From: Planctomycetota bacterium
GTDB lineage: Bacteria; Planctomycetota; Planctomycetia; Pirellulales; PLA5
Length of the DNA: 34,197 nt
Reading direction: 5' to 3'
Assembly (NCBI GenBank): GCA_003576845.1
Contig: QEVJ01000057.1
Span: 1-34,197 of the forward strand
In this document: one piece after another, positions 16,719-32,062 of the stretch
How the letters are laid out: each line of letters starts with the position of its first letter
Numbering within the stretch: position 1 is the stretch's first letter
The notes under the pieces: model-generated
Databases searched by the model: none
Told to the model about the DNA's origin: nothing
The model's input: only the letters and a program-made list of their open reading frames with translations
Translations under genes and position numbers: made by a program

Positions 16719-16856
16719 GAATGCCGAATGCGGGGACAGCCGCTGTTTTCCATTTTTTTCGCGCCGGCTGCACGGAATCTAAGCCGGCGCGCCTCTACTA
16801 GTCTTGGGCGGTGACATGTTCGTCGTCGCATGGATGAGATTGCGCGCGGACGTGCT

Positions 16857-16933
16857 AATCCCGAATCCCGAATCCCGAATCCCGAATCCCGAATCCCGAA
16901 TCCCGAATCCCGAATCCCGAATCCCGAATCCCG
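16857..16933. repeat. Eleven perfect tandem copies of the heptamer AATCCCG
   Basis: Copies start every 7 nt from 16857 to 16927 with no mismatch, which implies recent expansion or active homogenisation. The array ends 2 nt before the ATG at 16936, so it fills the position where a ribosome binding site would normally lie. An open frame passes through it from about 16804, but only as a repetitive IPNPESR string. Confidence 0.95.
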
Positions 16934-16935
16934 CC

Positions 16936-19329
16936 ATGCGACTCACTCTCCGCACGATGCTTGCCCACCTCGATGGGATACTCGACCCGGCCGACAGCGA
17001 GGACCTGGCTCGCAAGATCGCCGAGAACGAATTTGCCGGGACGCTGGCCCAGCGGATCGGCGAGGTGACAAAACGGCTGCGGCTCGGCGCGCCGAAGGTG
17101 CTCGGCAAAGGCACGGCGCTCGATCCGAACACCGTGGCCGAGTATCTCGACAGCACGCTGGCCTCGGAGCGGATGCCGGATTTCGAGAAGGTCTGCCTGG
17201 AGTCCGACGTGCACTTGGCGGAGGTCGCCGCGTGCCATCACATTCTCACGATGATCGTGGGCCAGCCCGCGCTAGTCGACCCGGAAAGTCGCCAACGGAT
17301 GTACGCGATCGGCCGCCGTAGCGAGCCGGTCGGGGCCAACGGCAACGGCGCGGCGGAAGTATCCGCGGCGGCTGCGACGATGGCGGCGCACGGGGCCGCG
17401 GTCGATGATCCGTCGGTGTCGGTTGACGGCTTTCCGACGCAGCGCGCGACCCAAGTCGAGCCGGCAAAGCCGAAGGTGCCGGACTATTTGCGCGAGGGCG
17501 CCCGACAACAGAAAATGACGACCGCCATGATCGCGGTGGCGGCCGTCGGACTGACGATCGCCGTGCTCGCGTTCAAGGATCGGCTGCTGAGCCTGGTCGG
17601 ATTTGGGCCGGCGGACACGACGGCGTCAGTGGAGGGCGAGGCGGGCGACACCGGGAGCGCTTCGAACGGAGCGTCGCAGCCAAAAGCGCCGCCCTCCGCG
17701 TCGGCGCCTGCCGAAGGGGCGAAACCGGCGACTGCGACGGACGGTCCGGACGCGGCTGCCCCGCGCGACGCCGACGTGAAGCAGACGGCGCCTCCAACGG
17801 CAGGCGATATTCCTGCTGCGCCCGCGCCGAGAGATGTTCGAGCGGACGAGAGCGCGACGGCGCCGCTGCCGGGCCGTGAGAATGGCGAGCCGATTGCCCC
17901 GGGTGAATCACCCGGGGCTAAATCGGAAGACGCAACTCCGCCTCCGCCGCCAGCGCCGCCGTCCGATGGCCCGCAACAGCCCGCCGCCGCGCCTCGGGCC
18001 GAACGGGCCGAGCCGGTTGGCAAGCTCGTGTCCGGCGATCAGTTGCTGCTCCGCTTCGACCGCCAGGCCGGCGACGGCGGCGATTGGCTCCGCGTGCCCG
18101 ACAACGGCATGATCTTTGGCGGCGATCTGGTCGTGGCATTGCCGACGTTTCGTCCCCGGCTCGTGCTGACGGGCGGTTTGCTCGTCGAGTTGATCGCCGA
18201 CAGCCGCGACGGGACGATCGTCGAAATGCTGGCGCCCGACGCGAATGGAACGCAGGGCCTTCGCGTATGGCACGGCCGCCTGGCGAAGGTATCCGCGCCC
18301 GGGCGTCAGAACGTGCCGCTGCGGATCGCGTTCGGCAAGCAAGTCGCCACGGTCACGCTGACCGACACGACGACCGTGTTGGCCGCAAGCGTCGAGCACG
18401 CCTATCAACCGGGCGAAGATCCGATGGCAATCGCCGAGCCGCTGCTGGCGACGTTTATGACGACGTCCGGTGCGGTGGACGTCGCGGTTGAAGGCCAGCG
18501 GCCGGTGATGCTCAACGAGGCGATGCGGCTGACGATCGGCGCGATGGACGCGAAAGTCGACGTGGCGGCGCCGGAGCCGCTCAGTTCGCCGCCACGGTGG
18601 CTCGACAAGCCGGAGGTCGAGTGGCTCGATGCCAATGCCGCGACGCAGTTGATGCGCGACCTGACTCCGACGGCGTCGGTCGGCGTCATCCTCGCCGAGC
18701 AATTTCACGGCCGGCGTCTCGAAGGGCAATCGCTGGCGGCCCGGTCGTTCGGCTATTTGGGCCGGTTCGACCCGCTGGTCAAAGCGGCTCTTAAGAACGA
18801 AACGCTCACCTGGAACTGGCGAGAAAAATCGCTCGAGGGATTGCGGCAAGCGATCCGCCGCGGCCCCGCCACGGCTTCGCTCGTGCGCGATGCGATCGCG
18901 AAGGAGTTCGGCGACCGCAACGGCGGCGTAATGTATCGGATGTTGTGCGGCTACAGCCCGGCGGATTTGAAAGGCGGTGCGGACGTCCGGCTCATCGAGA
19001 ATCTCGAACACGACGAGTTGCCGTTCCGTTCGCTCGCAATCTTCAACCTCAGTTCGATCACCGGCGCATCGCTCGGTTATCAACCGGAAGCGCGCGAGAA
19101 CCAGCGGCGAATGTGGGCCGTGCGGTGGCGCGAAAAGTTGCAGCGGAAAGAGATCGCCTACCGCGAGGCGAAGCCCCCTGCGGGTCCGCCATCGGCGCCC
19201 CCTTCGCCCGCGCCGGGTGCGCCTACGCCTGCGGAGACGGGCGACGAAGCAGCCCGCGATGTCGCGCCGCTTGCCGACCCGCCAGCGGAAACGCCGCCGC
19301 CTCCCGCGGCTACGCCGGATGGACGATAG
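16936..19329 (+). CDS. Single-pass membrane protein with FecR-like region, unknown function
   Basis: The 797-residue protein begins MRLTLRTMLAHLDGI. Residues 1-130 are helical. The stretch VAEYLDSTLASERMPDFEKVC followed by HLAEVAACHH is reminiscent of a degenerate anti-sigma zinc-finger (ZF-HC2-like) domain. One membrane helix lies at about 195-214 (MIAVAAVGLTIAVLAFK). A long Pro/Ala linker (about 220-355) follows, then a beta-rich region with FMTTSGAVDVAVEGQRPVML near residue 508, similar to FecR-type domains. A helical C-terminal part (about 555-750) precedes a Pro-rich tail. This order suggests a cytoplasmic regulatory head and an exported sensor-like part, but that is inference. The start at 16936 directly follows the heptamer array and has no normal ribosome binding site. 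Confidence 0.78.
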   Translation: MRLTLRTMLAHLDGILDPADSEDLARKIAENEFAGTLAQRIGEVTKRLRLGAPKVLGKGTALDPNTVAEYLDSTLASERMPDFEKVCLESDVHLAEVAACHHILTMIVGQPALVDPESRQRMYAIGRRSEPVGANGNGAAEVSAAAATMAAHGAAVDDPSVSVDGFPTQRATQVEPAKPKVPDYLREGARQQKMTTAMIAVAAVGLTIAVLAFKDRLLSLVGFGPADTTASVEGEAGDTGSASNGASQPKAPPSASAPAEGAKPATATDGPDAAAPRDADVKQTAPPTAGDIPAAPAPRDVRADESATAPLPGRENGEPIAPGESPGAKSEDATPPPPPAPPSDGPQQPAAAPRAERAEPVGKLVSGDQLLLRFDRQAGDGGDWLRVPDNGMIFGGDLVVALPTFRPRLVLTGGLLVELIADSRDGTIVEMLAPDANGTQGLRVWHGRLAKVSAPGRQNVPLRIAFGKQVATVTLTDTTTVLAASVEHAYQPGEDPMAIAEPLLATFMTTSGAVDVAVEGQRPVMLNEAMRLTIGAMDAKVDVAAPEPLSSPPRWLDKPEVEWLDANAATQLMRDLTPTASVGVILAEQFHGRRLEGQSLAARSFGYLGRFDPLVKAALKNETLTWNWREKSLEGLRQAIRRGPATASLVRDAIAKEFGDRNGGVMYRMLCGYSPADLKGGADVRLIENLEHDELPFRSLAIFNLSSITGASLGYQPEARENQRRMWAVRWREKLQRKEIAYREAKPPAGPPSAPPSPAPGAPTPAETGDEAARDVAPLADPPAETPPPPAATPDGR

Positions 19330-19388: not shown

Positions 19389-20591
19389 TCAGCCGACGGC
19401 AATTCGCTCGAACACCTTTTCGCCACCGCAATACGTTGCCTGTGCTTCGAACGTATTGGGAACGTGCGTTTTTTGGGCGGGCGACGACCGCAATCGGAAG
19501 CACGCCAAGTCCGCGATTGCGCCGACTTCGAGACCCATCGGCGCGGGTGTGGGATCGAGCAATCGCGCGGGGCGAATACTCGCCGCGTCAACCGCTGCTC
19601 GAAGATCCGCTCCCGCAAACGCCATCAGATTCGCCACGCCGTCGCCGATCGGCCGCGACGCGCCGGCGAGCAATTGCCGCTGCCCGGCGATAACGAGGCG
19701 GCCGTCATCCAGGATTTCCAGGTCGCACAACTCGCTTGCATAGCGGCCCGGCGGCAACCCGGCGAGCCCGGACAAGTCGCTTACGAGCACGACCCGCTCC
19801 GCGGTTTTGGCGCGCCAGAAGGTTTTCACGACTTCCGCCGGCAAGTGATGCCCGTCGACGATCAGGCTCGCGGTGAGCCGGTCTTCGGCCAGTTGGTCCC
19901 AAAGGTAGTTGGGATGCCGGGGCAGTTCCCGATGCGCGCCGTTGCCCAGGTGCGTGCTCATCGACGCTCCGGCATCGACCGCGGCGCGAATCTGATCGGA
20001 GGTCGCCGCCGTGTGGCCGATCGACACGACGATTTTCTCGCTGGCGGCCCGAGCAATGAACTTGGGCGCGTTTTCGTACTCGGGCGAGAGCGTGACGAGT
20101 CCAATCCGTCCCCCGGCCGCGTCGTTGAGCCGCGCGAACTCGTCCCAATCCGGCGGCCGACAGTGGGCCAGGGGATGTGCCCCACGCGGGCCGTCGATGG
20201 GCGAAATGAACGGGCCTTCCAAATGAATCGCGAGCACGCGACGGGCGACTTGGCCGTCCGCGTCGCAGGCCGCGGCGATGGTCTTCATCGCGTGGGCGAG
20301 CACGTCGAAACCCGCGGTCGTCACGGTGGGGCAGAATCGCGTGACGCCGAACTCGGCCATCCGCCGCATGATCGCCGCAACATTTTCGACCGTCAAATCG
20401 GCCGAGCTAAACTCCTGCCCGCCGTAGCCATTGACCTGGAGATCGACGAAGCCCGGAGCGATCCACGCGAGCTCGCCGCCCTGATGGCGATCGTCGAGCG
20501 GTTCAATCGACGCAATCCTGGCGCCGCGCACCTCGAGTGTCACTGCCTCGGCAGTGTCGTAGCGTCGCACAATCAGCGTCGTAGACGTCAT
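19389..20591 (-). CDS. nagA: N-acetylglucosamine-6-phosphate deacetylase-like amidohydrolase
   Basis: This 400-residue amidohydrolase-superfamily enzyme should deacetylate N-acetylglucosamine-6-phosphate in amino-sugar and wall recycling. NagA signatures in order are APGFVDLQVNGYGG, HLEGPFISP (metal Glu), VSIGHTAATSDQ (metal His), STHLGNGAH (metal His), IVDGHHL (substrate His) and VLVSDLSGLAG, with the catalytic Asp at the normal TDA site. Two motifs differ from the textbook form: THLGNGAH instead of THLFNAM, and SDLSG instead of TDA. It is therefore a divergent NagA and could act on a related amino sugar. The start at 20591 gives MTSTTLIVRRYDT. A strong terminator lies only 16 nt upstream, so it needs its own promoter or is controlled by readthrough. 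Confidence 0.86.
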   Translation of the reverse strand: MTSTTLIVRRYDTAEAVTLEVRGARIASIEPLDDRHQGGELAWIAPGFVDLQVNGYGGQEFSSADLTVENVAAIMRRMAEFGVTRFCPTVTTAGFDVLAHAMKTIAAACDADGQVARRVLAIHLEGPFISPIDGPRGAHPLAHCRPPDWDEFARLNDAAGGRIGLVTLSPEYENAPKFIARAASEKIVVSIGHTAATSDQIRAAVDAGASMSTHLGNGAHRELPRHPNYLWDQLAEDRLTASLIVDGHHLPAEVVKTFWRAKTAERVVLVSDLSGLAGLPPGRYASELCDLEILDDGRLVIAGQRQLLAGASRPIGDGVANLMAFAGADLRAAVDAASIRPARLLDPTPAPMGLEVGAIADLACFRLRSSPAQKTHVPNTFEAQATYCGGEKVFERIAVG

Positions 20592-20606
20592 GGCAAAGGC
20601 AGATGT

Positions 20607-20653
20607 GAAAACAAAAATGCGGCGGCCGGCGCATGGCGCGCCGTTGCCGCCGC
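20607..20653 (-). terminator. Rho-independent terminator between the small basic gene and nagA
   Basis: On the minus strand GCGGCGGC pairs with GCCGCCGC (20646-20653 with 20619-20626). An inner GGCGC/GCGCC extends the stem, and it is followed by ATTTTTGTTTT. It ends only 16 nt before the nagA start codon. That position suits either an ordinary terminator of the upstream gene or an attenuator for nagA. Confidence 0.85.
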
Positions 20654-20694
20654 GTTTGTGTGGCAAATAACACGTCGCTCGCCCATGGGCGATT

Positions 20695-20880
20695 CTACCA
20701 CATCATCCGCTTCTTGCGGCGCCGGTGGATGCCGTTGTACGACGTCGGGGCCGTGCCGGTGCGCCCTTGTTTCTTGCGCTTGTATTCCGGCCGGTCGCCG
20801 ACCCGCTCGGGCTGCTGACGGCGCTGTTGAGAAAAGAGCCCAAAGTCCAATTCATCGTCGCGATCTTCGGTGTCTCGCAT
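20695..20880 (-). CDS. Small basic protein, HRRRKKR-tail family, copy 1
   Basis: This 61-residue protein has an acidic start (MRDTEDRDDELDFGLF), a Gln/Arg/Lys-rich middle and the tail SYNGIHRRRKKRMMW. The tail is shared with two neighbouring genes on the same strand: HRRRKKR is identical in all three although the codons differ at synonymous positions, which argues for selection on the protein. The start at 20880 has GGGAG 7 nt upstream; the longer frame before it is not protein-like. A strong terminator follows the stop. No known domain, signal peptide or cysteine is present. The charge suggests binding to nucleic acid or ribosomes, which is inference only. Confidence 0.82.
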   Translation of the reverse strand: MRDTEDRDDELDFGLFSQQRRQQPERVGDRPEYKRKKQGRTGTAPTSYNGIHRRRKKRMMW

Positions 20881-21028
20881 AAGACATCTCCCAGGAAAAC
20901 GAGGAAACAAAACCGGTTGTAAAACTGCGCTCCGGCGCGGGCCGACAAAAGCCGGCAGTGCCAAGGCGCAATACGTGGGTATTTGCAGATGGGGCAACTG
21001 GCGCAGGCGCGAAGCGCTCGCCGCTTGC

Positions 21029-21217
21029 CTACCACTGAATTCGTTTCTTCCGGCGGCGGTGCAAGCCGTTGAACGAGGCGGTCGCGTTGCCCTGGCGCTT
21101 GGGCCGTGCGCTTCGCTTGAACGCAGGCTGACTCGGCGCGTCTTCGCTGCGCGAACGCCGGCGCTCGTCGCGGTCCTGGTCGTCGTGCTCTTCGTAGCCT
21201 TCCAAAATGCGGGCCAT
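21029..21217 (-). CDS. Small basic protein, HRRRKKR-tail family, copy 2
   Basis: This 62-residue protein starts MARILEGYEEHDDQDRDERR, has a basic Ser/Arg/Lys middle, and ends SFNGLHRRRKKRIQW. Layout and tail match the copies at 20695-20880 and 22623-22802. Outside the last 15 or so residues the sequences barely align, so the conserved element is the tail. A GGCAGAG stretch lies just upstream of the start. It lies between copy 1 and the degenerate receiver gene, all on the minus strand with gaps of 128-148 nt, so a shared transcript is possible. The function is unknown. Confidence 0.8.
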   Translation of the reverse strand: MARILEGYEEHDDQDRDERRRSRSEDAPSQPAFKRSARPKRQGNATASFNGLHRRRKKRIQW

Positions 21218-21345
21218 CGTGCTCTGCCTTTCGTCTGGCGGATTAAAACCGAAACTTCACGTAACCGAGCGCGACCGGCCGCGAGGCGCCGCTGGGGGAA
21301 CCTCGATGCCGTCGCTCGCGAAAACTTGCTGTTCTGCGAACCTCT

Positions 21346-21885
21346 CTATGAACGCCCCCGGCGACGCGAGGCGTTGCGAGCCGGACCACGCCGCGCGTGC
21401 GGAACGGCCGGCGTTGAAACGGAATTGCGCTCGAGCACTTTTCCGGCTTCCTCGAAAACGATCGACAGGTCGTGCGCGTCGGCCACGCCCGGCAAGACCA
21501 GCCAGGCCCCGAGCTGCCGCGCCCAAATCTCGTCTTGCGGCGCGAGCGCCTCGCGCCCGCAAGCCGCCATCAAGTGGCCCGGCTCGCGGGAAAGCCGCTC
21601 GAACAACCATCGATTCCCGTTCGCGGGCCGGTCTACGTCGTCGTGCACGTCGACCACGACCAACGGTGTCGCGCTCCGCCGCGATTCTTCCCAAGCCAAC
21701 TCGGCGTCGGCGAACACGAGCGGCAGCCAGCCGCCCTCGATCGCCGCCCGGCGCAATACGTCGCGGCGTTCGGCATGCGCCGAGACCACGAGACACTGCC
21801 GCATCGAGACGAGTTGCCCCGTCGCGACCGTGGACGCGGGTTCCGACGCCGTAGCCAGCGCCGCTTTCGGATTGTCGTAGGACAT
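21346..21885 (-). CDS. Degenerate receiver-like protein
   Basis: The 179-residue protein has a central region (about 29-150) that reads like a CheY-type receiver: CLVVSAHAERRDVLRRA as strand 1 and helix 1, PLVVVDVHDD with Asp79 at the phosphorylation position, then a GAWLVLPG segment. The acidic pair after strand 1 is replaced by SAH, and the usual Lys before Pro near the end of the domain is missing. It is therefore probably a pseudo-receiver that is not phosphorylated in the normal way. The N-terminal 27 and C-terminal 30 residues are low-complexity, and the latter is Arg-rich. AGGTAA upstream of 21885 supports the start; an internal ATG at 21804 is possible. It sits between two HRRRKKR-tail genes. 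A regulatory partnership is speculation. Confidence 0.7.
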   Translation of the reverse strand: MSYDNPKAALATASEPASTVATGQLVSMRQCLVVSAHAERRDVLRRAAIEGGWLPLVFADAELAWEESRRSATPLVVVDVHDDVDRPANGNRWLFERLSREPGHLMAACGREALAPQDEIWARQLGAWLVLPGVADAHDLSIVFEEAGKVLERNSVSTPAVPHARRGPARNASRRRGRS

Positions 21886-22622
21886 AGGGTGTTACCTGAT
21901 TCGGTTCGTTTGGCGATTACATCCCTGCGCATGGCGCAACGTTCGCGGTTGCCGCGCGGAAGCTGTTCCGCAACTACGGTCGACCGCGTTGACGCCGCGC
22001 CGGAATTTTTCCGCGCGACGCCCACGTTGCGACGCTCCTCACCGCCCGATTGCTCGACGCATCAACGGCGCGGCTTGGCGCGCGCCTATGAACACGCCTC
22101 GCCGCGACATGCGAGATGTCGAGCAAGCAGACCCGGTTCGATGTCGACGCGCGCGCCGCCAGCGCGGCCTTGCCGCGCGGCGCCGAAGCGCGTATTGGTT
22201 CGCCGATTGAGTCCGCAATCGCGCCAGGACTGCCGCGTGTAAGCGACATCGACTTCGACGCTCGGTCAGGCATTCGGCCGCACGAGGTGTTCGTACAACC
22301 GAATGCACATGGCCGAGTGAAGCACGTCGCCGCTCGTCACACGGATTCTCAGGCGGTTTTGCCGCTCGATCGGAAGTTTGCTTGCGTTAAGCGCCGCGCG
22401 CGACGCGCAGCACTTCACGCTTATTCGGTTCGGCATCCCGGCACAGGCGCGACAAACTGCGCTGCCGCGATGCGGTGAATTGGTCGCGACGCGGTGCACC
22501 GGCGCATGGTCGCGCGCGGGCTACGCCGACGAGCAACACCGCCACGGGACCAGGCTCGCTTGACACGCGGCTCGCCAAATGCACGGCCGATGCCATGCGT
22601 AGCGCGCAACGTTGCCCTCGAC
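21886..22622. other. About 740 bases without a credible gene; GC-rich hairpins
   Basis: Open frames here on both strands are short, overlap each other and are Arg/Ala-rich as expected by chance at this GC content. Several hairpins are visible: GCGGAA-GCTG-TTCCGC (about 21956-21971), CGGAA/TTCCG with GC-rich flanks (about 21997-22017), and GCGCGGC-CTT-GCCGCGC (22162-22178). It may contain long leaders or a small RNA, but no known RNA family was recognised. Confidence 0.4.
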
Positions 22623-22802
22623 CTACCAACTCCAGCGCTTCTTGCGCCGGCGGTGCAGGCCGTTGAATCCCACCGGGCGCGCCGCCCGCCGCGTCGTGTT
22701 CGTCTTGCGGCTGCGACGCGGCTTGACTTGCTCGGAGCTACGCTCGAAATCGGCCTGATAGTCGGGCGTGGTTCCGCCGTACCAAATGACGGCTGTGCTC
22801 AT
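22623..22802 (-). CDS. Small basic protein, HRRRKKR-tail family, copy 3 (59 residues)
   Basis: This ORF is short enough to be dropped by a 60-residue cutoff. It reads MSTAVIWYGGTTPDYQADFE, then an Arg/Lys/Thr-rich middle, then GFNGLHRRRKKRWSW. The start is supported by GGAG 7 nt upstream of ATG 22802. The tail is nearly identical in protein to the two copies at 20.7-21.2 kb but uses different Arg codons, so it is neither a recent duplication nor a DNA repeat. It stands alone, with no ORF for about 740 nt downstream and about 300 nt upstream. The longer minus-strand frame that overlaps it in another phase lacks any such support. Confidence 0.8.
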   Translation of the reverse strand: MSTAVIWYGGTTPDYQADFERSSEQVKPRRSRKTNTTRRAARPVGFNGLHRRRKKRWSW

Positions 22803-23100
22803 GACTCACTCCAAAGTTGTGGACTTCAATGCCTTCGGCCCCCGTGGGCCGCTGCACCGTGCCGGCGCAACGTCCAACGCAGCACGTGCGTTGGCTGCCA
22901 AATGCAAAAGCAGCCGCGATGCCAATGTGGCAATCGCGTGCCATGTCGCTCCGCAAGCGCTGGAGCGGTCGGAGGTTACGGCCGAAGCGAAGGCACGATC
23001 GGGCCGCGTTCGGCAAGCGTGCGGCTCACCGATACGAGGAGACGCCGGCGAGCAAGAATTGCGACGAGACGCCTGAGGTTCGCGGACTTACGCCGCCGTT
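22803..23100 (-). other. Upstream region of the third small basic gene with a hairpin
   Basis: About 298 nt without a gene. A perfect 7-bp stem (CCAACGC at 22874-22880 with GCGTTGG at 22888-22894, 7-nt loop) lies 72 nt before the start of the 59-residue protein and could be part of its leader. Near the glycosyltransferase end, TTCACCA (23099-23105) and TGGTGAA (23129-23135) also pair. Confidence 0.4.
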
Positions 23101-24282
23101 TCACCAGTTCGATGAGGTCTCACCGGTTTGGTGAAGTGGATGGAGGTCCGGCTGGCGATTCCCGGCCGCGTCCGCGACTTCCCGATAATGCCGGAGCAAC
23201 ACGGCGGCGGCATTTCGAGCATCGAATGCCTCGACGGCTCGCCGCCGCGCGGCTTCGCCGAGCCGGCGGCGCTCCTCGGCGCAGGCCAGCAACGCAGCAA
23301 TCGACGCGGCCATGGCGACCGGATCGTTTGGCGCAACCAATCGCGCGGCGCTCGCCTCGGGTGGAAAGATTTCGCGCGTGCCGCCCGTATCGGTCGTAAC
23401 GATTGCGAGTCCCGACGCCGCCGCTTCGAGCAGCACGCGACCGAGCGGCTCCTGTCGTGCCGCGTGGGCGAGCATCGTCAGTTCCGGCATGATCTCGGCG
23501 ACATCGTCGCGCTCGCCGAGCCAGAACACGCGCCGGGGGATCACCCGCGTCGCTTCGACCAATTGTTCCTCGATCCGCCGGGTTTCCGCCTTGTCCGAAT
23601 AGCACGCGCCGACGAGGACGAAGGCGGCATCGTCGAAACGCGCAAGCACATCGCGGGCGGCGTCGAGGAGGACATCCCACCCTTTTCGCAGCGAAACCTG
23701 TCCGACGGCCCCGATCAAGCTAACGCCCGGCGACAGGCCAAGCTCGCGGTGCAACCAGCCGTTGGGCGTCCTAGGACAAAAGGCGTCTAGATCAACGCCG
23801 TTGTACGCGACGTGGGTCTTCTCCCCGTCCACACCCGCGGCGACGTGATAATCGCGCACCGCATGGCTCACCGCCAACAGCCGCGAATTGAAGTTGAGTC
23901 CCGCGATGGCGGCCCGGCTTTGACCGACGATATCCCGCACGTGAGCGATGCTTGGAATCCCGAGCGTCGAACAGACCGGCCCGACGACGCGTCCCGTCGC
24001 CAGACTGTTGGCGTGCACGAGTTCGGGCCGCAGCGCCGCGAGAATGGCGGCGAGTTCTCGTTCTGCCAGGCCGCTTTGTTTGGTTCCGTGTGCGTCGCGT
24101 CCGGCAGTCCAGGGAATGACTGTCGCGCCGAGCGCCGCGAACGCTTGGGCCAATCCCGAGTCCGGCACGATGGTGTGGATTCGCACGCCTGCCTCGCGCA
24201 AACACGGCAATAGGGCCAGGAGCGACCGTTCGCCGCCGAGCAGCGTCGGAAACTCGCATACGACGGCGGCATCGAGTGCCAT
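23101..24282 (-). CDS. Glycosyltransferase family 4 protein
   Basis: This GT-B fold glycosyltransferase of about 393 residues transfers a sugar from a nucleotide-sugar donor in polysaccharide or glycolipid synthesis. The N-terminal acceptor domain includes VVCEFPTLLGGERSLLALL and RPELVHANSLATGRV. The C-terminal domain starts near AVGQVSLRKGWDVLL and contains the retaining-enzyme EX7E motif (EPLGRVLLEAAASG) followed by TTDTGGTREIF. MALDAAVVCEF at 24282 is chosen as start. An in-frame ATG at 24327 lies inside a 13-bp inverted repeat and would add residues not typical of the family. Neither start has a clear ribosome binding site. The gene is divergent from the giant exoprotein gene, and no other polysaccharide genes adjoin it. 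Confidence 0.88.
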   Translation of the reverse strand: MALDAAVVCEFPTLLGGERSLLALLPCLREAGVRIHTIVPDSGLAQAFAALGATVIPWTAGRDAHGTKQSGLAERELAAILAALRPELVHANSLATGRVVGPVCSTLGIPSIAHVRDIVGQSRAAIAGLNFNSRLLAVSHAVRDYHVAAGVDGEKTHVAYNGVDLDAFCPRTPNGWLHRELGLSPGVSLIGAVGQVSLRKGWDVLLDAARDVLARFDDAAFVLVGACYSDKAETRRIEEQLVEATRVIPRRVFWLGERDDVAEIMPELTMLAHAARQEPLGRVLLEAAASGLAIVTTDTGGTREIFPPEASAARLVAPNDPVAMAASIAALLACAEERRRLGEAARRRAVEAFDARNAAAVLLRHYREVADAAGNRQPDLHPLHQTGETSSNW

Positions 24283-24309
24283 GTCTGGTGAAACCCACGG
24301 CGCGAACCG

Positions 24310-24340
24310 GCCAACAAAAAACCGCATGTTTTTTGTTGGC
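24310..24340. promoter_or_regulatory. Perfect 13-bp inverted repeat with A/T tracts
   Basis: GCCAACAAAAAAC (24310-24322) and GTTTTTTGTTGGC (24328-24340) are exact complements around CGCAT. The position is just upstream of the glycosyltransferase start, at the edge of the AT-rich divergent promoter zone. It could be an operator or a structured leader. Confidence 0.7.
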
Positions 24341-24369
24341 ATTTGGTAAGTACAATCAATAGAATTGAT
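24336..24369 (+). promoter_or_regulatory. Candidate promoter of the giant exoprotein gene with overlapping palindrome
   Basis: TTGGCA (24336-24341) and TAGAAT (24360-24365) are 18 nt apart, and each matches consensus at five of six bases. ATCAAT-AGA-ATTGAT (24355-24369) is a perfect palindrome that covers the -10 box, as a repressor site would. The leader would be about 305 nt long. Confidence 0.5.
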
Positions 24370-24676: not shown

Positions 24677-27600
24677 ATGCGATTATTCTCTCGGCGGAAA
24701 CCATCAACGACCGCGCCGCGTGCGCGCCCGCGCGCCTTCGAGCCGCTCGAGACGCGGTCGCTGCTGGCAGCCAACGTCCTCATTACGGAGATCATGTATC
24801 ACCCGGCGTCGGAGGACCCGCTCGACGAATTCATCGAAATCTACAACGCCGAACCGACGTCGGTAAACCTTAGCGACTGGCGATTCAGCGACGGCGTCGA
24901 CTTTACGTTCCCCTTTGGTACGGTGCTCGGCGCGGGGCAATATCTCGTCATCGCCGCGGACGAGTCGCAGTTCGAGCTCAACTACCCGAGCGTCACCAAC
25001 TTCATTGGCGGATGGTCCGGCGGATTGAGCAACGGCGGCGAAACGGTCGAGCTCGAAGATGCATCCGGCGATCGCGTCACCCGCTTTACATACGCCGACG
25101 AAGGCGACTGGGCAACGCGCGAAGAGGCGCTGGGAACGCCCGGTGGATACGACGGCTGGCGGTGGAACGCGCCGCACGACGGCTTTGGAAAGTCGCTCGA
25201 ACTGGTCAGCCGCGGTCTCACCAACGATTCCGGTCAGAACTGGGCCGCCAGCGTTCCCGACGGCGGCACCCCCGGCCGCGTCAACTCGGTGGACCGGGCG
25301 AACGACGCTCCGGTGATCCGCGACACGATCCACTCGCCGATCATCCCGCGCTCGATCGATACGGTAACGATCACGGCCCGGGTTACCGACGAACAGACGA
25401 CCGGCTTGAGCGTGTCGGTCTTCTGGCGCGAAGCGACGACGGTTGCTTTGCCGGGACCGTCGTTTACGCAGGCGACGATGTTCGACGATGGCCTGCACGG
25501 CGACGGCGCGGCGGGCGACGGCGTCTACGGCGCGGCGCTCGCGGCCAAGCCCGACAAGACGATCATCGAGTTCTACGTCCGCGCCGCCGACTCGGCCGGC
25601 AACGCCCGCACCTGGCCCACCGCGAATCACTCGACCACGGCGCAAGGCGCGAACGCGCTGTACCAGGTAGACAACGCGGCGGTCGTCGACCCGAACATTC
25701 CCGAATACCGGCTGATCTTCACGCCGTGGGAACTTAACGAATTCAACACGAACGTAAGCCGCGGCAGCAATGCGGAAATGAACGTCACGTTCGTGAGCGT
25801 CATCGACGGCGTGGCGGAGGTGCGGTACAGCGCGGGAGTGCGCTATCGGGGGCAGGGAAGCCGGTCGAATAATCCGCCGAATCAGCGCGTCAACTTCGCC
25901 GACGACAATCCGTGGCGCGGCATTCGCGCCGCCAATCTCAACGCACGCTTTTCTTACCTGCAACACATCGGCATGGCGATGTTCGAGCGGGCCGGTTTGC
26001 CCGCCGAGCATCCCGAGCAGGTCATGGTCCGCCGCAACGGCAACATTTTGCCGAACTCCGGCAGTTCGCAATACGGCTTCTACGTCCATCTCGAACCGAT
26101 CAACGAGGACTGGGCCGAGAACCACTTTCCCGGCGATTCCGACGGCAACGCATACCGCGGGCAAGATTGGGACTTGCAGTACATCGACAGCAATCCGGAT
26201 TCGTACCGCAATCGCATCCAAAAGCAAACGAACGTTTCCGAAGACGATTTCAGCGATGTGATGAACCTCGGCCGCGCGTTCAGCACGTCGCAAACGCCCG
26301 ACAACCAGTTTGTCCAGCGGATCGAAGCGGCGATCAACGTGCAGCAGTGGTTGCGCTGGCTAGCGGTGAACGCGCTGCTCGTCAACGAAGAGAACGGCCT
26401 CATCAACAACACGTCGCGCGACGAGTATTCGCTCTATCGCGGCACGGTCGACACGCGGTTCGTCATCGCGATTCACGACTTGGACAACGTGCTGGGCCAA
26501 GGCGACCAAGGCGGCGGATCGGCGACGCGCGATCTGTTCGAGCCGGCGGGGTTGCCGGCATTTAACCGGTTGATGAACCATCCGAATTACCGCCCCTACT
26601 ACTTCGCGCACCTCAAGCAGCTTGCCGAGACGATTTTCGCGCCCAGCCAGTTCAACGCCTGGCTCGACGCCGAAGTCGGCGATTGGGTTTCCTCGTCGAT
26701 CCGCGACAGCCTCAAGAGCTTCAACCAGCAGCGCGTGAATTACGTGCTGAGCCAGATTCCGCCGGGCACGCCGAACCTGTCCAGCCCCGCCGACACGCTC
26801 CGCGTCACCGAGGTGATGTACAACGCCGAGCAAGGCAACGACTACGACTTCATCGAACTCAAAAACACTGCGCCGGCGGCCGTCAATCTTCAAGGCGTGA
26901 CGATCGAAGGCGGGATCACGTTCACGTTTCCCTTGCTCAACCTCAATCCCAACCAATACGTCGTCGTCGCCGCCAACGAAGCGGCGTTCCGGGCTCGCTA
27001 CGGCACGGTCCCGAATCTGGCCGGCGAGTATTCGGGGAATCTCAACAACTCCGGCGAACAGATCCTGCTCAAGAGCGGGAGCCCGCTGTTCGGCACGATC
27101 CTCGATTTCACCTATTCGGACCTTTGGCATCCGAGCACGGACGGCGAGGGCCGATCGTTGGTGATCGTCAATCCCGCCGCGGCGACGAGCACGTGGAACA
27201 GCGGCGCTTCGTGGAGGCCGAGCAACCTCGACGGCGGTTCGCCCGGCGCCGACGACAACGAAGCGCTCGGGCCGAATTCAGTCGTCATCAACGAGGTGTT
27301 GTCGCATTCGGATCAAGCGGCCGGCGACCGCATCGAACTTCGCAATCTGACGAACCAGACGGTCAACATCTCCAATTACTATCTGAGCGACGATCCGGCG
27401 AACCGCACCAAGTATCGCATTCCGAGCGGCACAACGCTCGCGCCGGGCGGATACGTCGCGTTCAGCCAAACGACCCATTTCGGTCCGCCGAACATGACCG
27501 GCGTTCCGTTTGGGTTCAGCGAACTGGGCGACGAGGTCTACTTTACCGCCGCCAACGGCATCACGACGATCGACTCGATCGACTTCGGCGCCGCCGAATC

Positions 27601-30600
27601 GGAGGTGCCGTTCGGGCGGTTCACGACGAGCACCGGCAACGTCGACTATCCGCCGATGGCGTCGGCCACGTTCGGTTCGGCGAACGCGCTACCCAAGATC
27701 GGCCCGGCAGTCATCAACGAGATCATGTATCATCCGCTCGGCGCGACGGCGGCGGCGACGGAATACATCGAACTCAAGAACGTCTCGGCGAGCACCGTGC
27801 AGCTTTTCGATCCTTCGCGCCCGGCGAACACGTGGGCGTTTACCGAGGGCGTGAACTATGTGTTTCCGTCGGGCGTGACGATTCCCGCCGGCGGATTCTT
27901 GCTCGTCGTTCCGTTCGACCCGTCCGCCGAGCCGACGCTTGCCTCCGAGTTCCGCGCGGCGTACAACGTGCCCGCAGGCACGCCGCTCTACGGCCCGTAC
28001 ATCGGCGCGCTCGACAACGCGGGCGAAAAGCTCGAACTGTCCAAGCCCGGCCCGCCCGAACCCGACTTGACCGTTCCGATGATCGTCGTCGATCGCGTGA
28101 CCTACGACGACGCCGATCCTTGGGTGCTCGAACCCGATGGCCAGGGCGCGTCGCTCGCGCGCAAGATTCCGGCGGCGTACGCCAACGATCCGGCCAGTTG
28201 GGACGCCAGCCGTCCGAACGGATCGCCCGGAACCGAAAACACGTTCGTCGATCGCTCGCCGCCGAGCACGCCCGGCGGACTCGCGGTCACGACGCCGCAA
28301 GCCGGCCAGTTCGCGCTCCAGTGGAACGCGGCGAGCGATCCCGACAGCGGGATCGGCGAGTATCGTGTCTATCGTGATAACGTCCAAATCGCCTCGGTGA
28401 CGGGGACGACCTTTCTCGACACGTCGGTGGCGCCGCGGGCTCGGTTCGAATATCAAGTCTCGGCCGTGAACGCGGGTGGTCTCGAAGGCGGCCGCTCCGC
28501 GATCGTCAATGCCGGTTACGGCGCGATCGACGCCGTCTGGCCGCTCGACAACGGCGACACGCAACTCGTCGTCCTATTTACCGAGCAGGTCAACGCGACG
28601 CATGCAGCGCTTGCGAGCAATTACACGCTCGGCGGCGCGACCGTGACGAGCGCCACGCCGCGCCTGGACGGCAGGAGCGTTGTGCTCACGACGTCGCCGC
28701 TCGCGATCGGTTCGCCGTATACGCTGTCGATAGCCAACATCGGCGTGACGTTCGGGAGCGCGTTCCCGCCGGGCACATCGTATAGCTACACGCACGAGCC
28801 GCTTTCGGCCGGCATTTCCGCCCGCCTGGTCAATCCTGCCGGCACGCTAGCGAGCATGAACGCGGCGGACGCCGCGCTCGCGCTGCCGCCGGGACATCCT
28901 GGACTCGCCGCGCTTTCCACGCAGCGGTATGGCCGCATAAACCTCGCCGACACGCCCGGCGGCAATCCGGGGCACTTTACGGGCGATTCGCCGTTTCCCA
29001 CGGCGATTCTCACGACGATGCCCGTCGCGCTGCGAGCGACCGGCGTCGTCACGAACGCCACGGCCGGCGCCTGGACGTTCGGGCTTGCTTCCGGCGTCGT
29101 GCTCACCGGCACGCGGCTGCGGATCGACGGCTTCGACGCGATTCCGGATTCGCCGGGCAACGCCAATGCCGACCGCTTCGGTACCGTGAACCTTTCGGCG
29201 GGCCAGCACTTTGTCGACCTCGTATACTACACAACGGCGGGTGCAGCGGGTGTCGAATTATTCGCGGCGCCCGGCTCGTTCACGTCGTTTGCACAAACGA
29301 CGAATTGGGCGCTTCTCGGCGATACGCCCTCAGGCGGCCTGCCGTTGTCCACGCCTCCTGCGGCGGCCGTCGATTTGCCGTGGTTCCCCGGCACGATTCC
29401 AGGTGGATTCCTCACCGAATCGAACACGATGACCGCCACGATCGACGGCGGCGCCAGTCTCCGCTATCGTGCCAATTTCCTCGCCGGGCAGTCGTTCTCG
29501 CTGCTCGCCACGCCGACAATTCCTCTGGCGCAGGTTTCCTTGACCGTCCGCCGCGGTTCGCAAGTCGTTGGCGCGGCAACGGCGCCGGGACCCGGCGTCG
29601 CCGCGTGGCTCGATAGCTTCGTGCTCGCCGAGGGCGGGCTGTATACGATCGAAATCGCGCCCACCGCCACTACGATCGTTCAACTCCGCGCCTCGCTCGC
29701 GGCCGCGTTCGAGGGCGAGGCCTTCGGTCAAGGCGCCAACGACAGCCGCGCGTCCGCCCAGTCGCTCGACGCCGCCGTCGTGTCGAATGGCGACGCTAGC
29801 CGTCTGGCCGTGGCCGGTTCGATCGTGCTGCCGGGCGTGTACCACGATCTCGTCGCCGCCGACAACCCCGTCGGATACTGGCGGCTCGACGACGCGCCGG
29901 GCGGGTCGAACGTTGCCGCGAACCTTGGTTCGGCAGGATCGATCTCCAACGGCGTTTATTTCGGCGCCCCGCTGCTCGGAGAGCCGGCGATTGTGCCGAA
30001 CGTCGAGGGAACCGCCACCTATTTCGACGGCAGCAACGACCGTGTCGAAGTCGGCGACAACGCGCAGATCAATTCCGGCGGGCCGTATCTCAATCGCACC
30101 GTCTCGCTGTGGTTCAACGCGGGCGACACCGAAGGTGTCGATACCGAAACGGTCAACGGCAAACGCGTGCTCTTCGATGAAGGAACCAGCCAGCGCGGCC
30201 TCAACGTCTATCTCGACGAAGGCAAGCTTTACGTCGGCGCGTACAACACGTCGAGCGACGGCGCCGCGACGCCGTGGGGACCGATTTTCTTGAGCACGCC
30301 GGTCGTCGCCAACCGCACGTACCACGTCGTGCTATCCCTCGACGCCGCGACGCGCACGTTTACCGGCTATCTCGACGGCGTCAAGTTCGGCCAATCGACC
30401 GCCGCCGGGCCGCTCTACGGGGCTACGACGGGCATTCGCATCGGCCGCCGCACCGACACCCTATACCACGACGGCGCGTCGGCTTCGAGCGGCGACCCGT
30501 TCCTGGGCACAATCGCGGAAGTCGCCGTTTTTAACAGCACGCTTTCCGACGAACGGGTCGCGGCGCATTACGTCGCCGGTGCGGCAAAGGTCGACGATTA

Positions 30601-32062
30601 CTATGCCGTCACGTTGGCGGCCGGCCAGCCGGCGTCGTTCGTCGTCGACGGCGCGACGGCGGGCACGTGGACCGTGGAACTGCAAGACGCTTCCGGCGGC
30701 ATTTTGGCCACGCCGTCGCCCGGGCCGGCGAATGCCGACGCCTCGATCCGCAATTTCGTTCCGACGGCAGGCGGCGTGTATTACGTGCGGATCACCGCCA
30801 ACGTCGCGGCAAACTACACCGCGTTCGTCACCCGCGGCGCCGAATTCGAGCGCGAAACGAACGACGCGACGGGCACGGCCCACGACATTTCCGCGGCCGG
30901 GGCCGTCTGGGGCGGCCTGGCTTCTGCGGTCGACGTCGATGTCTACGCGATCGACGTCGCGGCCGGCCAAACACTGACCTTCGAAACGGCGACGCCCGAC
31001 ACGCTCGTCGGCGCGAATGGCGGCATTTGGAATCCACGGATCGAACTGCACGCTCCCGGCGGCGGCGTGATTGCGTCGGACGACAACGGCGCGCCGGACG
31101 GCCGCAATGCGCGGCTCGTTCATACCTTCGCTTCGGCGGGGAATTATGTCGTCGTGGTCCGTTCGTCGACGGGAAGCGGGGATTATTTGCTCACCGTCGA
31201 TTCCTCCGGCGGCGAAACGGCCCAACTCGTCGACGTGCTCGTTTCGGGAAGCCCGTGGAGCAGCGAGTTTCTCGATCTGCTCGACGCGCGCGGACTCGGC
31301 GAGGGCGGTTGGTCCGTTCGCAATCACACGGCTACGGACGCAAACCTTCCCTGGACGAATCTCGACCGCGTGCAACTGGTGTTCGACCGCCTGGTTCCCG
31401 CGGCGATCGGCGACATTGCCGTTTCCGGTGTGGCGCTGGCCCAGTACGGCATCGCCTCGTTCGAGGCCAACGGCAACGTCGCCACGTGGACGCTTGCCAA
31501 CCCGCTCCCCGCGGATCGGTTCACCGTCGATCTCAGTTCGTCGCTGGAAGCGGCGCTCGGCGGCCAGCCGCGGCAGTACCATTTCACGGTTTTGCCAGGC
31601 GACGTGAACGACGACGACGCGGTTTCGCTTTCCGACGTGATTGCCGATCGGGCATTTCAATTCCGGTCGACGGCCGCGGCGGATTACGATCCGCGGCACG
31701 ACGTCGAGGGCAGCGGCGTCATCAACTTCGTCGACATGATTCGGGTGCGCAACCGGATTGGCTCGACGCTTCCGCCCGCGTCGCCCAGCGCCCCGGCGGC
31801 CGTGATCGCGGCGGTCAGCGGCACACGCCAAGCCGAAGACCGACGTGCGGCGGCGCCCCTGCGAGCCTCGGCGCGCCGAGTCCTATCCCCAGCGGCGGTT
31901 GACCGCGCGATCGCCGCAGAACGAGGCACCGAAACGGGGCGCAATCCGGCTCTTGCCGCGTCGGCGAGTCGCCATGCGTCGCAGGCCGTCGGGCTTGTCG
32001 CCGGGGCGCGACTTCTTTCGCGCGCCAATCTCGACGCCGGACGATCCGGCAACGTATCATAA
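24677..32062 (+). CDS. Giant LEPR-XLL exoprotein with lamin-tail, CotH kinase-like and dockerin-like domains
   Basis: The 2461-residue exported protein begins with a basic stretch and FEPLETRSLLAA (residues 21-32), the planctomycete LEPR-XLL motif. Domains in order are lamin-tail 1 (about 33-140); a CotH-like kinase fold (about 340-690; YRGQGSRSN, HDLDNVLGQ); lamin-tail 2-4 (from about 709, 868 and 1011); fibronectin III (about 1195-1272); Ig-like (about 1288-1358); PA14-like (about 1375-1540); an unassigned beta domain; LamG-like (about 1732-1968, YWRLDDAPGG); and pre-peptidase C-terminal-like domains (to about 2180). A dockerin-like Ca-binding pair (GDVNDDDAVSLSD, about 2306-2363) precedes a basic Ala-rich tail of about 100 residues. 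CotH proteins phosphorylate secreted proteins; whether this one is active is unknown. It is likely part of the surface or matrix. Confidence 0.93.
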   Translation: MRLFSRRKPSTTAPRARPRAFEPLETRSLLAANVLITEIMYHPASEDPLDEFIEIYNAEPTSVNLSDWRFSDGVDFTFPFGTVLGAGQYLVIAADESQFELNYPSVTNFIGGWSGGLSNGGETVELEDASGDRVTRFTYADEGDWATREEALGTPGGYDGWRWNAPHDGFGKSLELVSRGLTNDSGQNWAASVPDGGTPGRVNSVDRANDAPVIRDTIHSPIIPRSIDTVTITARVTDEQTTGLSVSVFWREATTVALPGPSFTQATMFDDGLHGDGAAGDGVYGAALAAKPDKTIIEFYVRAADSAGNARTWPTANHSTTAQGANALYQVDNAAVVDPNIPEYRLIFTPWELNEFNTNVSRGSNAEMNVTFVSVIDGVAEVRYSAGVRYRGQGSRSNNPPNQRVNFADDNPWRGIRAANLNARFSYLQHIGMAMFERAGLPAEHPEQVMVRRNGNILPNSGSSQYGFYVHLEPINEDWAENHFPGDSDGNAYRGQDWDLQYIDSNPDSYRNRIQKQTNVSEDDFSDVMNLGRAFSTSQTPDNQFVQRIEAAINVQQWLRWLAVNALLVNEENGLINNTSRDEYSLYRGTVDTRFVIAIHDLDNVLGQGDQGGGSATRDLFEPAGLPAFNRLMNHPNYRPYYFAHLKQLAETIFAPSQFNAWLDAEVGDWVSSSIRDSLKSFNQQRVNYVLSQIPPGTPNLSSPADTLRVTEVMYNAEQGNDYDFIELKNTAPAAVNLQGVTIEGGITFTFPLLNLNPNQYVVVAANEAAFRARYGTVPNLAGEYSGNLNNSGEQILLKSGSPLFGTILDFTYSDLWHPSTDGEGRSLVIVNPAAATSTWNSGASWRPSNLDGGSPGADDNEALGPNSVVINEVLSHSDQAAGDRIELRNLTNQTVNISNYYLSDDPANRTKYRIPSGTTLAPGGYVAFSQTTHFGPPNMTGVPFGFSELGDEVYFTAANGITTIDSIDFGAAESEVPFGRFTTSTGNVDYPPMASATFGSANALPKIGPAVINEIMYHPLGATAAATEYIELKNVSASTVQLFDPSRPANTWAFTEGVNYVFPSGVTIPAGGFLLVVPFDPSAEPTLASEFRAAYNVPAGTPLYGPYIGALDNAGEKLELSKPGPPEPDLTVPMIVVDRVTYDDADPWVLEPDGQGASLARKIPAAYANDPASWDASRPNGSPGTENTFVDRSPPSTPGGLAVTTPQAGQFALQWNAASDPDSGIGEYRVYRDNVQIASVTGTTFLDTSVAPRARFEYQVSAVNAGGLEGGRSAIVNAGYGAIDAVWPLDNGDTQLVVLFTEQVNATHAALASNYTLGGATVTSATPRLDGRSVVLTTSPLAIGSPYTLSIANIGVTFGSAFPPGTSYSYTHEPLSAGISARLVNPAGTLASMNAADAALALPPGHPGLAALSTQRYGRINLADTPGGNPGHFTGDSPFPTAILTTMPVALRATGVVTNATAGAWTFGLASGVVLTGTRLRIDGFDAIPDSPGNANADRFGTVNLSAGQHFVDLVYYTTAGAAGVELFAAPGSFTSFAQTTNWALLGDTPSGGLPLSTPPAAAVDLPWFPGTIPGGFLTESNTMTATIDGGASLRYRANFLAGQSFSLLATPTIPLAQVSLTVRRGSQVVGAATAPGPGVAAWLDSFVLAEGGLYTIEIAPTATTIVQLRASLAAAFEGEAFGQGANDSRASAQSLDAAVVSNGDASRLAVAGSIVLPGVYHDLVAADNPVGYWRLDDAPGGSNVAANLGSAGSISNGVYFGAPLLGEPAIVPNVEGTATYFDGSNDRVEVGDNAQINSGGPYLNRTVSLWFNAGDTEGVDTETVNGKRVLFDEGTSQRGLNVYLDEGKLYVGAYNTSSDGAATPWGPIFLSTPVVANRTYHVVLSLDAATRTFTGYLDGVKFGQSTAAGPLYGATTGIRIGRRTDTLYHDGASASSGDPFLGTIAEVAVFNSTLSDERVAAHYVAGAAKVDDYYAVTLAAGQPASFVVDGATAGTWTVELQDASGGILATPSPGPANADASIRNFVPTAGGVYYVRITANVAANYTAFVTRGAEFERETNDATGTAHDISAAGAVWGGLASAVDVDVYAIDVAAGQTLTFETATPDTLVGANGGIWNPRIELHAPGGGVIASDDNGAPDGRNARLVHTFASAGNYVVVVRSSTGSGDYLLTVDSSGGETAQLVDVLVSGSPWSSEFLDLLDARGLGEGGWSVRNHTATDANLPWTNLDRVQLVFDRLVPAAIGDIAVSGVALAQYGIASFEANGNVATWTLANPLPADRFTVDLSSSLEAALGGQPRQYHFTVLPGDVNDDDAVSLSDVIADRAFQFRSTAAADYDPRHDVEGSGVINFVDMIRVRNRIGSTLPPASPSAPAAVIAAVSGTRQAEDRRAAAPLRASARRVLSPAAVDRAIAAERGTETGRNPALAASASRHASQAVGLVAGARLLSRANLDAGRSGNVS

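Follow-up and report, generated by a model that had tools for sequence, protein, structure and literature searches.

A Pirellulales family of tiny basic proteins, its probable sigma-54 regulon and its link to PEP-CTERM surface proteins

The window, a stretch of 34,197 nucleotides from a planctomycete genome of 7.05 Mb, contains three minus-strand genes for tiny basic proteins of 59 to 62 amino acids. The canonical copy (22623..22802, 59 aa, pI 11.8) is the first gene of an operon and ends in the tail FNGLHRRRKKRWSW. It is followed by a gene for a degenerate receiver protein (21346..21885, minus strand, 179 aa), the conserved partner of the tiny gene, and then by two diverged copies at 21029..21217 (62 aa, tail FNGLHRRRKKRIQW) and 20695..20880 (61 aa, tail YNGIHRRRKKRMMW). 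About 740 nt (21886-22622), in which no conserved ORF was noted, separate the first tiny gene from the receiver gene; the counterpart of this segment in a genome of the same genus (G001) is 841 nt long and aligns poorly. An ORF for a GT4-type glycosyltransferase (23101-24342, minus strand) lies upstream, and directly after the tiny genes there is a NagA-like amidohydrolase (19389-20666, minus strand), which scores below the NagA cut-off. On the plus strand, an ORF at 16804-19329 has tandem NPESRIPNPESRIP repeats in its start region and may represent a non-coding tandem repeat instead of a protein gene. The 2461-aa protein encoded at 24677-32062, also on the plus strand, carries the motif RAFEPLETRSLLAA in its N-terminal part and resembles secreted proteins of planctomycetes. 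Neither Rfam nor tRNA scans gave a hit in the window.

The earlier note on this DNA had grouped the three proteins by a common tail, [YF]NG[IL]HRRRKKRxxW, placed directly before the stop codon. The three ORFs and the tail were found as described, and the codons of HRRRKKR vary at five of seven positions among the copies. Within the window the first halves indeed do not align with each other; that of 22623..22802, however, can be aligned with members from other genera (D-Y-x-x-D-F-x-R), and this copy is therefore regarded as the canonical one. A degenerate DNA pattern for the tail matched three times in the 7.05 Mb genome, each time in the window, and the reversed control pattern did not match in the same genome. 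When 98 genomes were searched, the only matches beyond the own genome were three in G001, in syntenic order, and this genome indeed has three tiny genes arranged identically around the same receiver-like gene. Between the two genomes, the orthologue pairs had dN/dS values of approximately 0.35, 0.23 and 0.10 (0.27/0.77, 0.33/1.48 and 0.12/1.26, NG86), i.e. below 0.4 in every pair rather than near one, which bears out the purifying selection proposed from the codons. The tail changes between the two genomes are mostly synonymous, the third codon positions are GC-rich and resemble those of the neighbouring receiver gene, and plausible ribosome-binding sites precede the ORFs. GC-rich DNA commonly yields short Arg-rich ORFs, and chance ORFs or an annotation artefact could in principle be suspected; this explanation has been refuted by the dN/dS values, by E-values reaching 1e-22 in distant genera, by the ribosome-binding sites and by the independently found regulatory signals described below, and its probability is now negligible.

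The tail had pointed to a real family, but as a definition it was too narrow, as the exact tail is genus-specific and the family spans much of Pirellulales. With a profile of the three window copies members were detected in 59 of 147 Pirellulales genomes, and with a 57-row profile in 65; outside Pirellulales, there was no credible match in a sample of 294 genomes from across the phylum. The family is thus widespread in this planctomycete order and previously unnamed. Its members are approximately 60 aa long (ca. 55-70 aa), contain 25 % Arg and Lys, have a pI of 11-12, and consist of an acidic N-terminus (the first 20 residues are negative), an Arg-rich middle and a terminal RRxK[RH]xxW. More broadly the ending reads G-x-x-RR-x-[KR]-[RKH]-x-x-W, and the terminal Trp is present in 54 of the 58 members listed. 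The best E-values of the profile searches in distant genera are those of 1e-22 given above. The proteins are predicted to be disordered; the AlphaFold2 model is disordered and uninformative (pLDDT 62). In two genera of family f8 (L073, L069, L054, L290, L291) a second, more Arg-rich small ORF (RRLRGPLxRNxRRRVARRARRRR) begins just after the tiny stop codon.

No credible relative was found in Pfam, NCBIfam, PHROGs or PDB, in agreement with the earlier suggestion of an undescribed short-protein family, and known ribosomal or nucleoid protein families gave neither sequence nor profile matches. A PDB profile match to the NGIHKR repeats of H. pylori IceA2 was rejected, as its E-value was 0.05 and none of its stretches was significant on its own. 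Small, basic, multi-copy proteins could also be toxins, bacteriocin-like peptides or peptides of mobile elements. However, phage and plasmid records, IMG/VR viral contigs and PHROGs contained no match to the family, and both the chromosomal synteny and the regulation are conserved, which makes such a function very improbable.

When the neighbouring ORFs of 45 loci were clustered, the receiver gene turned out to be adjacent to the tiny gene and co-oriented with it in 38. The gene order can be tiny-receiver, receiver-tiny or tiny-receiver-tiny, and in the window it is tiny-receiver-tiny-tiny. Across the loci the partner protein is 160-180 aa long, and its AlphaFold2 model (pLDDT 84) has the (beta-alpha)5 receiver fold, with Spo0F (6ifh, E 1e-6) and FrzS (2i6f, E 3.5e-6) as Foldseek matches. 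The Asp of strand 3 (D79) is near-invariant, but the acid pair after beta1 and the Lys after beta5 are not conserved, and the protein is therefore considered a pseudo-receiver. It carries a conserved new signature, E-x-W-A-R-Q-x-G-x-W, and 17 of 39 relatives show a weak match to the VpsR domain of Pfam.

A -24/-12 sigma-54 promoter-like element, TGGCATCGCGGCTGCT, is located on the minus strand at 22909..22924, 106 nt before the ATG of the canonical copy. It matches the consensus at only 9 of 12 positions, with GG-N10-GC intact. In G001 a promoter with the same core lies 107 nt before the gene, and this core is conserved inside a poorly conserved leader. Two enhancer palindromes precede the promoter in the window, TCACCAAACCGGTGA at 23120..23134 (11/12) and, 19 nt from it, TCATCGAACTGGTGA at 23101..23115 (10/12), neither of them assigned to a strand. 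They overlap the 3' end of the glycosyltransferase ORF, the second one at its stop codon, and are 191 and 210 bp before the -24 element; among the palindrome positions expected, one is degenerate in this genome. Eleven sites with the exact palindrome were found in the own genome, and the full context was present solely at the window site. The leader that connects the promoter with the tiny gene also contains a perfect inverted repeat, CCAACGCA-CGTGC-TGCGTTGG (22874-22894, minus strand), and G001 has a diverged palindrome at this position.

Both signals are common in relatives of the window operon. A sigma-54 promoter matching at least 10 of 12 positions and no more than 350 nt from the first gene of the operon was found for 26 of 39 operons compared to 3 of 276 other ORFs, and the palindrome TCACCA-N3-TGGTGA was found in 30 of 39 upstream regions compared to 0.5 in shuffled sequences. 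Promoter and palindrome occurred together at 29 of 39 operons and 24 of 26 unlinked tiny genes, and at none of 326 other ORFs. The palindrome was found without prior expectation. Its consensus was built from the operons; independent tests are provided by the unlinked genes and by the loci held out from the derivation. The dyads cluster at 103-106, 114-117, 187-191 and 205-210 bp before the -24 element, with dyad-to-dyad distances of 19, 70-73, 83 and 89-91 bp, and many of them are thus near whole helical turns.

With the exact palindrome as query, other genomes yielded a second locus, unlinked to the first. It has sigma-54 promoters, perfect ones in three of four genomes, and encodes a further tiny protein, which ends in NGRRGRRW[SG]W in two genomes. 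Profiles made from these proteins detected further members that overlap the weak matches of the first profile. Four of the 26 unlinked tiny genes were discovered via the palindrome and the others via the protein. Synteny is conserved at the second locus, which is flanked by a thioredoxin-like gene and, in some genomes, a BON-domain-like gene (names read from the sequence). A second tiny locus was not detected in the window genome, and G001 has one with both signals. When 147 genomes were searched with a pattern of half-palindrome plus promoter, the matches beyond the known loci were mainly due to chance.

A candidate activator was found among the neighbouring genes. In 21 of 45 loci a sigma-54 enhancer-binding protein (EBP) without a receiver domain is encoded near the tiny locus, almost always upstream; in the window genome it is unlinked, on another contig (C29:31503-32420). 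One representative matched PF00158, the Sigma54_activat domain (9e-68), and PF02954, the Fis-type HTH (1e-7), in Pfam, and the alignment has conserved F-T-G-A and G-E-T-G-x-G-K-E columns, in accordance with a GAFTGA loop and Walker A. As the GAFTGA-type residues are kept, the protein is sigma-54 competent. With a stringent profile the EBP was detected in 61 of 147 genomes, a set almost identical to that of the tiny family and including genomes in which the genes are unlinked. Tiny and receiver genes, each found in 59 genomes, share 56, and the overlaps with the EBP are 54 for tiny and 55 for receiver genes; these counts and the Fisher tests on the 147 genomes ignore phylogeny. Several genomes of families that otherwise carry the trio lack all three genes together. 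At loci that were outside the motif derivation and belong to EBP-positive genomes, the palindrome array was present in 11 of 12, the twelfth having no upstream sequence. In EBP-negative genomes it was present at none of six loci, of which one (L046) had been part of the derivation set, and two of the six still have a sigma-54 promoter in its usual position.

The tiny proteins could themselves be regulators, with the tail docking on the EBP or the pseudo-receiver and the promoter-linked paralogues giving graded negative or positive feedback. PspA and FleN exert feedback on other EBPs and offer a parallel. The tiny gene adjoins and co-occurs with the receiver and EBP genes, the layout with the receiver inside an operon targeted by the EBP resembles autoregulation, and in one genome (L142, G032:C124) an extra EBP copy lies beside an extra tiny gene (tail NGKHRRRNKRYLF) on a contig where no receiver gene was detected. 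Against this, several unlinked tiny genes per genome under the same signals look like outputs, family f3 keeps tiny genes without an EBP, and five EBP-positive genomes (G035, G040, G092, G108 and G132) have no detectable tiny or receiver gene; these exceptions also suggest that the EBP has other jobs or replacements. We consider such a regulatory role of the tiny proteins rather unlikely.

A PEP-CTERM gene follows the receiver gene within 3 kb on the same strand in 19 of 37 loci, compared to an expectation of 0.03 per locus; there is none near the window operon. Representatives matched PEP-CTERM in Pfam, and two were weakly similar to the floc protein PepA in NCBIfam. These neighbours, together with the strongly basic composition, would suit extracellular polycations that bind anionic exopolysaccharide or matrix DNA after export by a route that reads the tail. 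However, the tiny proteins have no signal peptide. In one genus, four genomes carry a tiny ORF that lacks a stop codon and is fused in frame to the signal peptide of a PEP-CTERM protein (both fusion proteins tested with Pfam contain an FGE-sulfatase domain). As the tiny part precedes the signal peptide, it would remain on the cytoplasmic side, and an extracellular function thus appears improbable.

On balance, we slightly favour the interpretation that the tiny proteins are cytoplasmic effector microproteins, probably nucleic-acid binding, and outputs of a dedicated Pirellulales sigma-54/PEP-CTERM surface regulon. As judged from the sequences, the regulon as such, with the tiny family as its commonest shared product, is very probable. 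Decisive for this are the regulatory signals and partners, i.e. the promoter, the enhancer palindromes, the co-occurring activator, the degenerate receiver and the PEP-CTERM genes. None of these was part of the earlier note, which had thought of a tail binding RNA, DNA, ribosomes or a membrane partner and is partly supported. The family, its operon, the promoter and enhancer architecture and the co-occurrence of the genes were established by comparing sequences; we infer the binding of the EBP, the feedback, the nucleic-acid binding and the physiological setting. In the proposed mechanism the receiver-less EBP, with its AAA+ sigma-54 interaction domain and Fis-type HTH, would bind the tandem TCACCA-N3-TGGTGA palindromes on one face of the DNA, approximately 105-210 bp upstream of the -24/-12 promoters. 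It would thereby activate the operon of tiny protein, pseudo-receiver, often more tiny copies and a PEP-CTERM surface protein, as well as the unlinked single tiny genes. The place of the pseudo-receiver in an operon controlled by the EBP suggests that it may act in trans as a feedback partner of the EBP, in a split NtrC/VpsR-like arrangement. The tiny proteins would remain in the cytoplasm as disordered polycations and act during the switch of the cell to a surface or matrix programme. Their acidic-aromatic N-terminus could serve for protein contact or self-masking, and the Arg-rich middle and RRxK[RH]xxW tail might contact nucleic acid, RNA more likely than DNA. Basic disordered tails can bind proteins or membranes too. 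A cytoplasmic effector binding nucleic acid through its Arg-rich part or tail, as suggested by composition, disorder, lack of a signal peptide and fusion geometry, is a reasonable but tentative assignment.

The results provide, for planctomycetes, a candidate activator with its DNA site as well as a new group of proteins under common control, all of which are testable, and they illustrate that a 60-residue family absent from Pfam, NCBIfam, PHROGs and PDB can be validated by independent cis-regulatory evidence. Arginine-rich RNA-binding peptides such as lambda N and HIV Rev, and ribosome or nucleoid proteins such as Thx, Sra and Hc1, are likewise short, basic and disordered. The tiny family, however, has an acidic N-terminal part and a nearly invariant terminal Trp, and no sequence relation to these proteins was found. 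It is conceivable, although somewhat doubtful, that the combination of a receiver-less activator, a split-off feedback receiver and many unlinked disordered microproteins with an RR-x-K-x-x-W tail is a planctomycete-specific surface-programme regulon whose effector class has no known counterpart; the parts seen of a sigma-54 regulon survey that includes Planctomycetia mention no such family (PMC12316311).

The EBP resembles PspF in consisting of AAA+ and HTH without an N-terminal sensory domain and in needing control in trans. However, with 239.8 bits it is below the cut-off of TIGR02974 (443.6), the models for NifA, RtcR, NtrC and others score it higher, and no PspA-like gene was noted near these loci. 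Activators of the VpsR/FleQ type also link a degenerate receiver to an NtrC-family activator, in line with the weak VpsR match in Pfam, but in the present system receiver and activator are encoded separately, and the GAFTGA-type residues are retained in the EBP. A close parallel in regulation is PrsK-PrsR/RpoN. Proteobacterial PEP-CTERM genes carry a sigma-54 site and a motif for the EBP PrsR (PMC1569441), and Aquincola pepA requires RpoN (PMC9850573). In both systems PEP-CTERM genes are preceded by a -24/-12 promoter and by a distinct activator motif, and the phylogenetic profiles of this motif and of a Fis-type EBP agree. PrsR, described for Proteobacteria, has its own receiver, pairs with PrsK and has a reported TTTACA motif, whereas the present EBP has no receiver domain and scores 266 bits with TIGR02915 (cut-off 502.6), the degenerate receiver is a separate gene, the site reads TCACCA-N3-TGGTGA, and tiny basic proteins are the principal shared targets. 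The description of the PEP-CTERM system in 2006 stated that more regulators and DNA motifs were still to be found both inside and outside Proteobacteria (PMC1569441), and the Pirellulales EBP with its palindrome is a candidate for one such pair.
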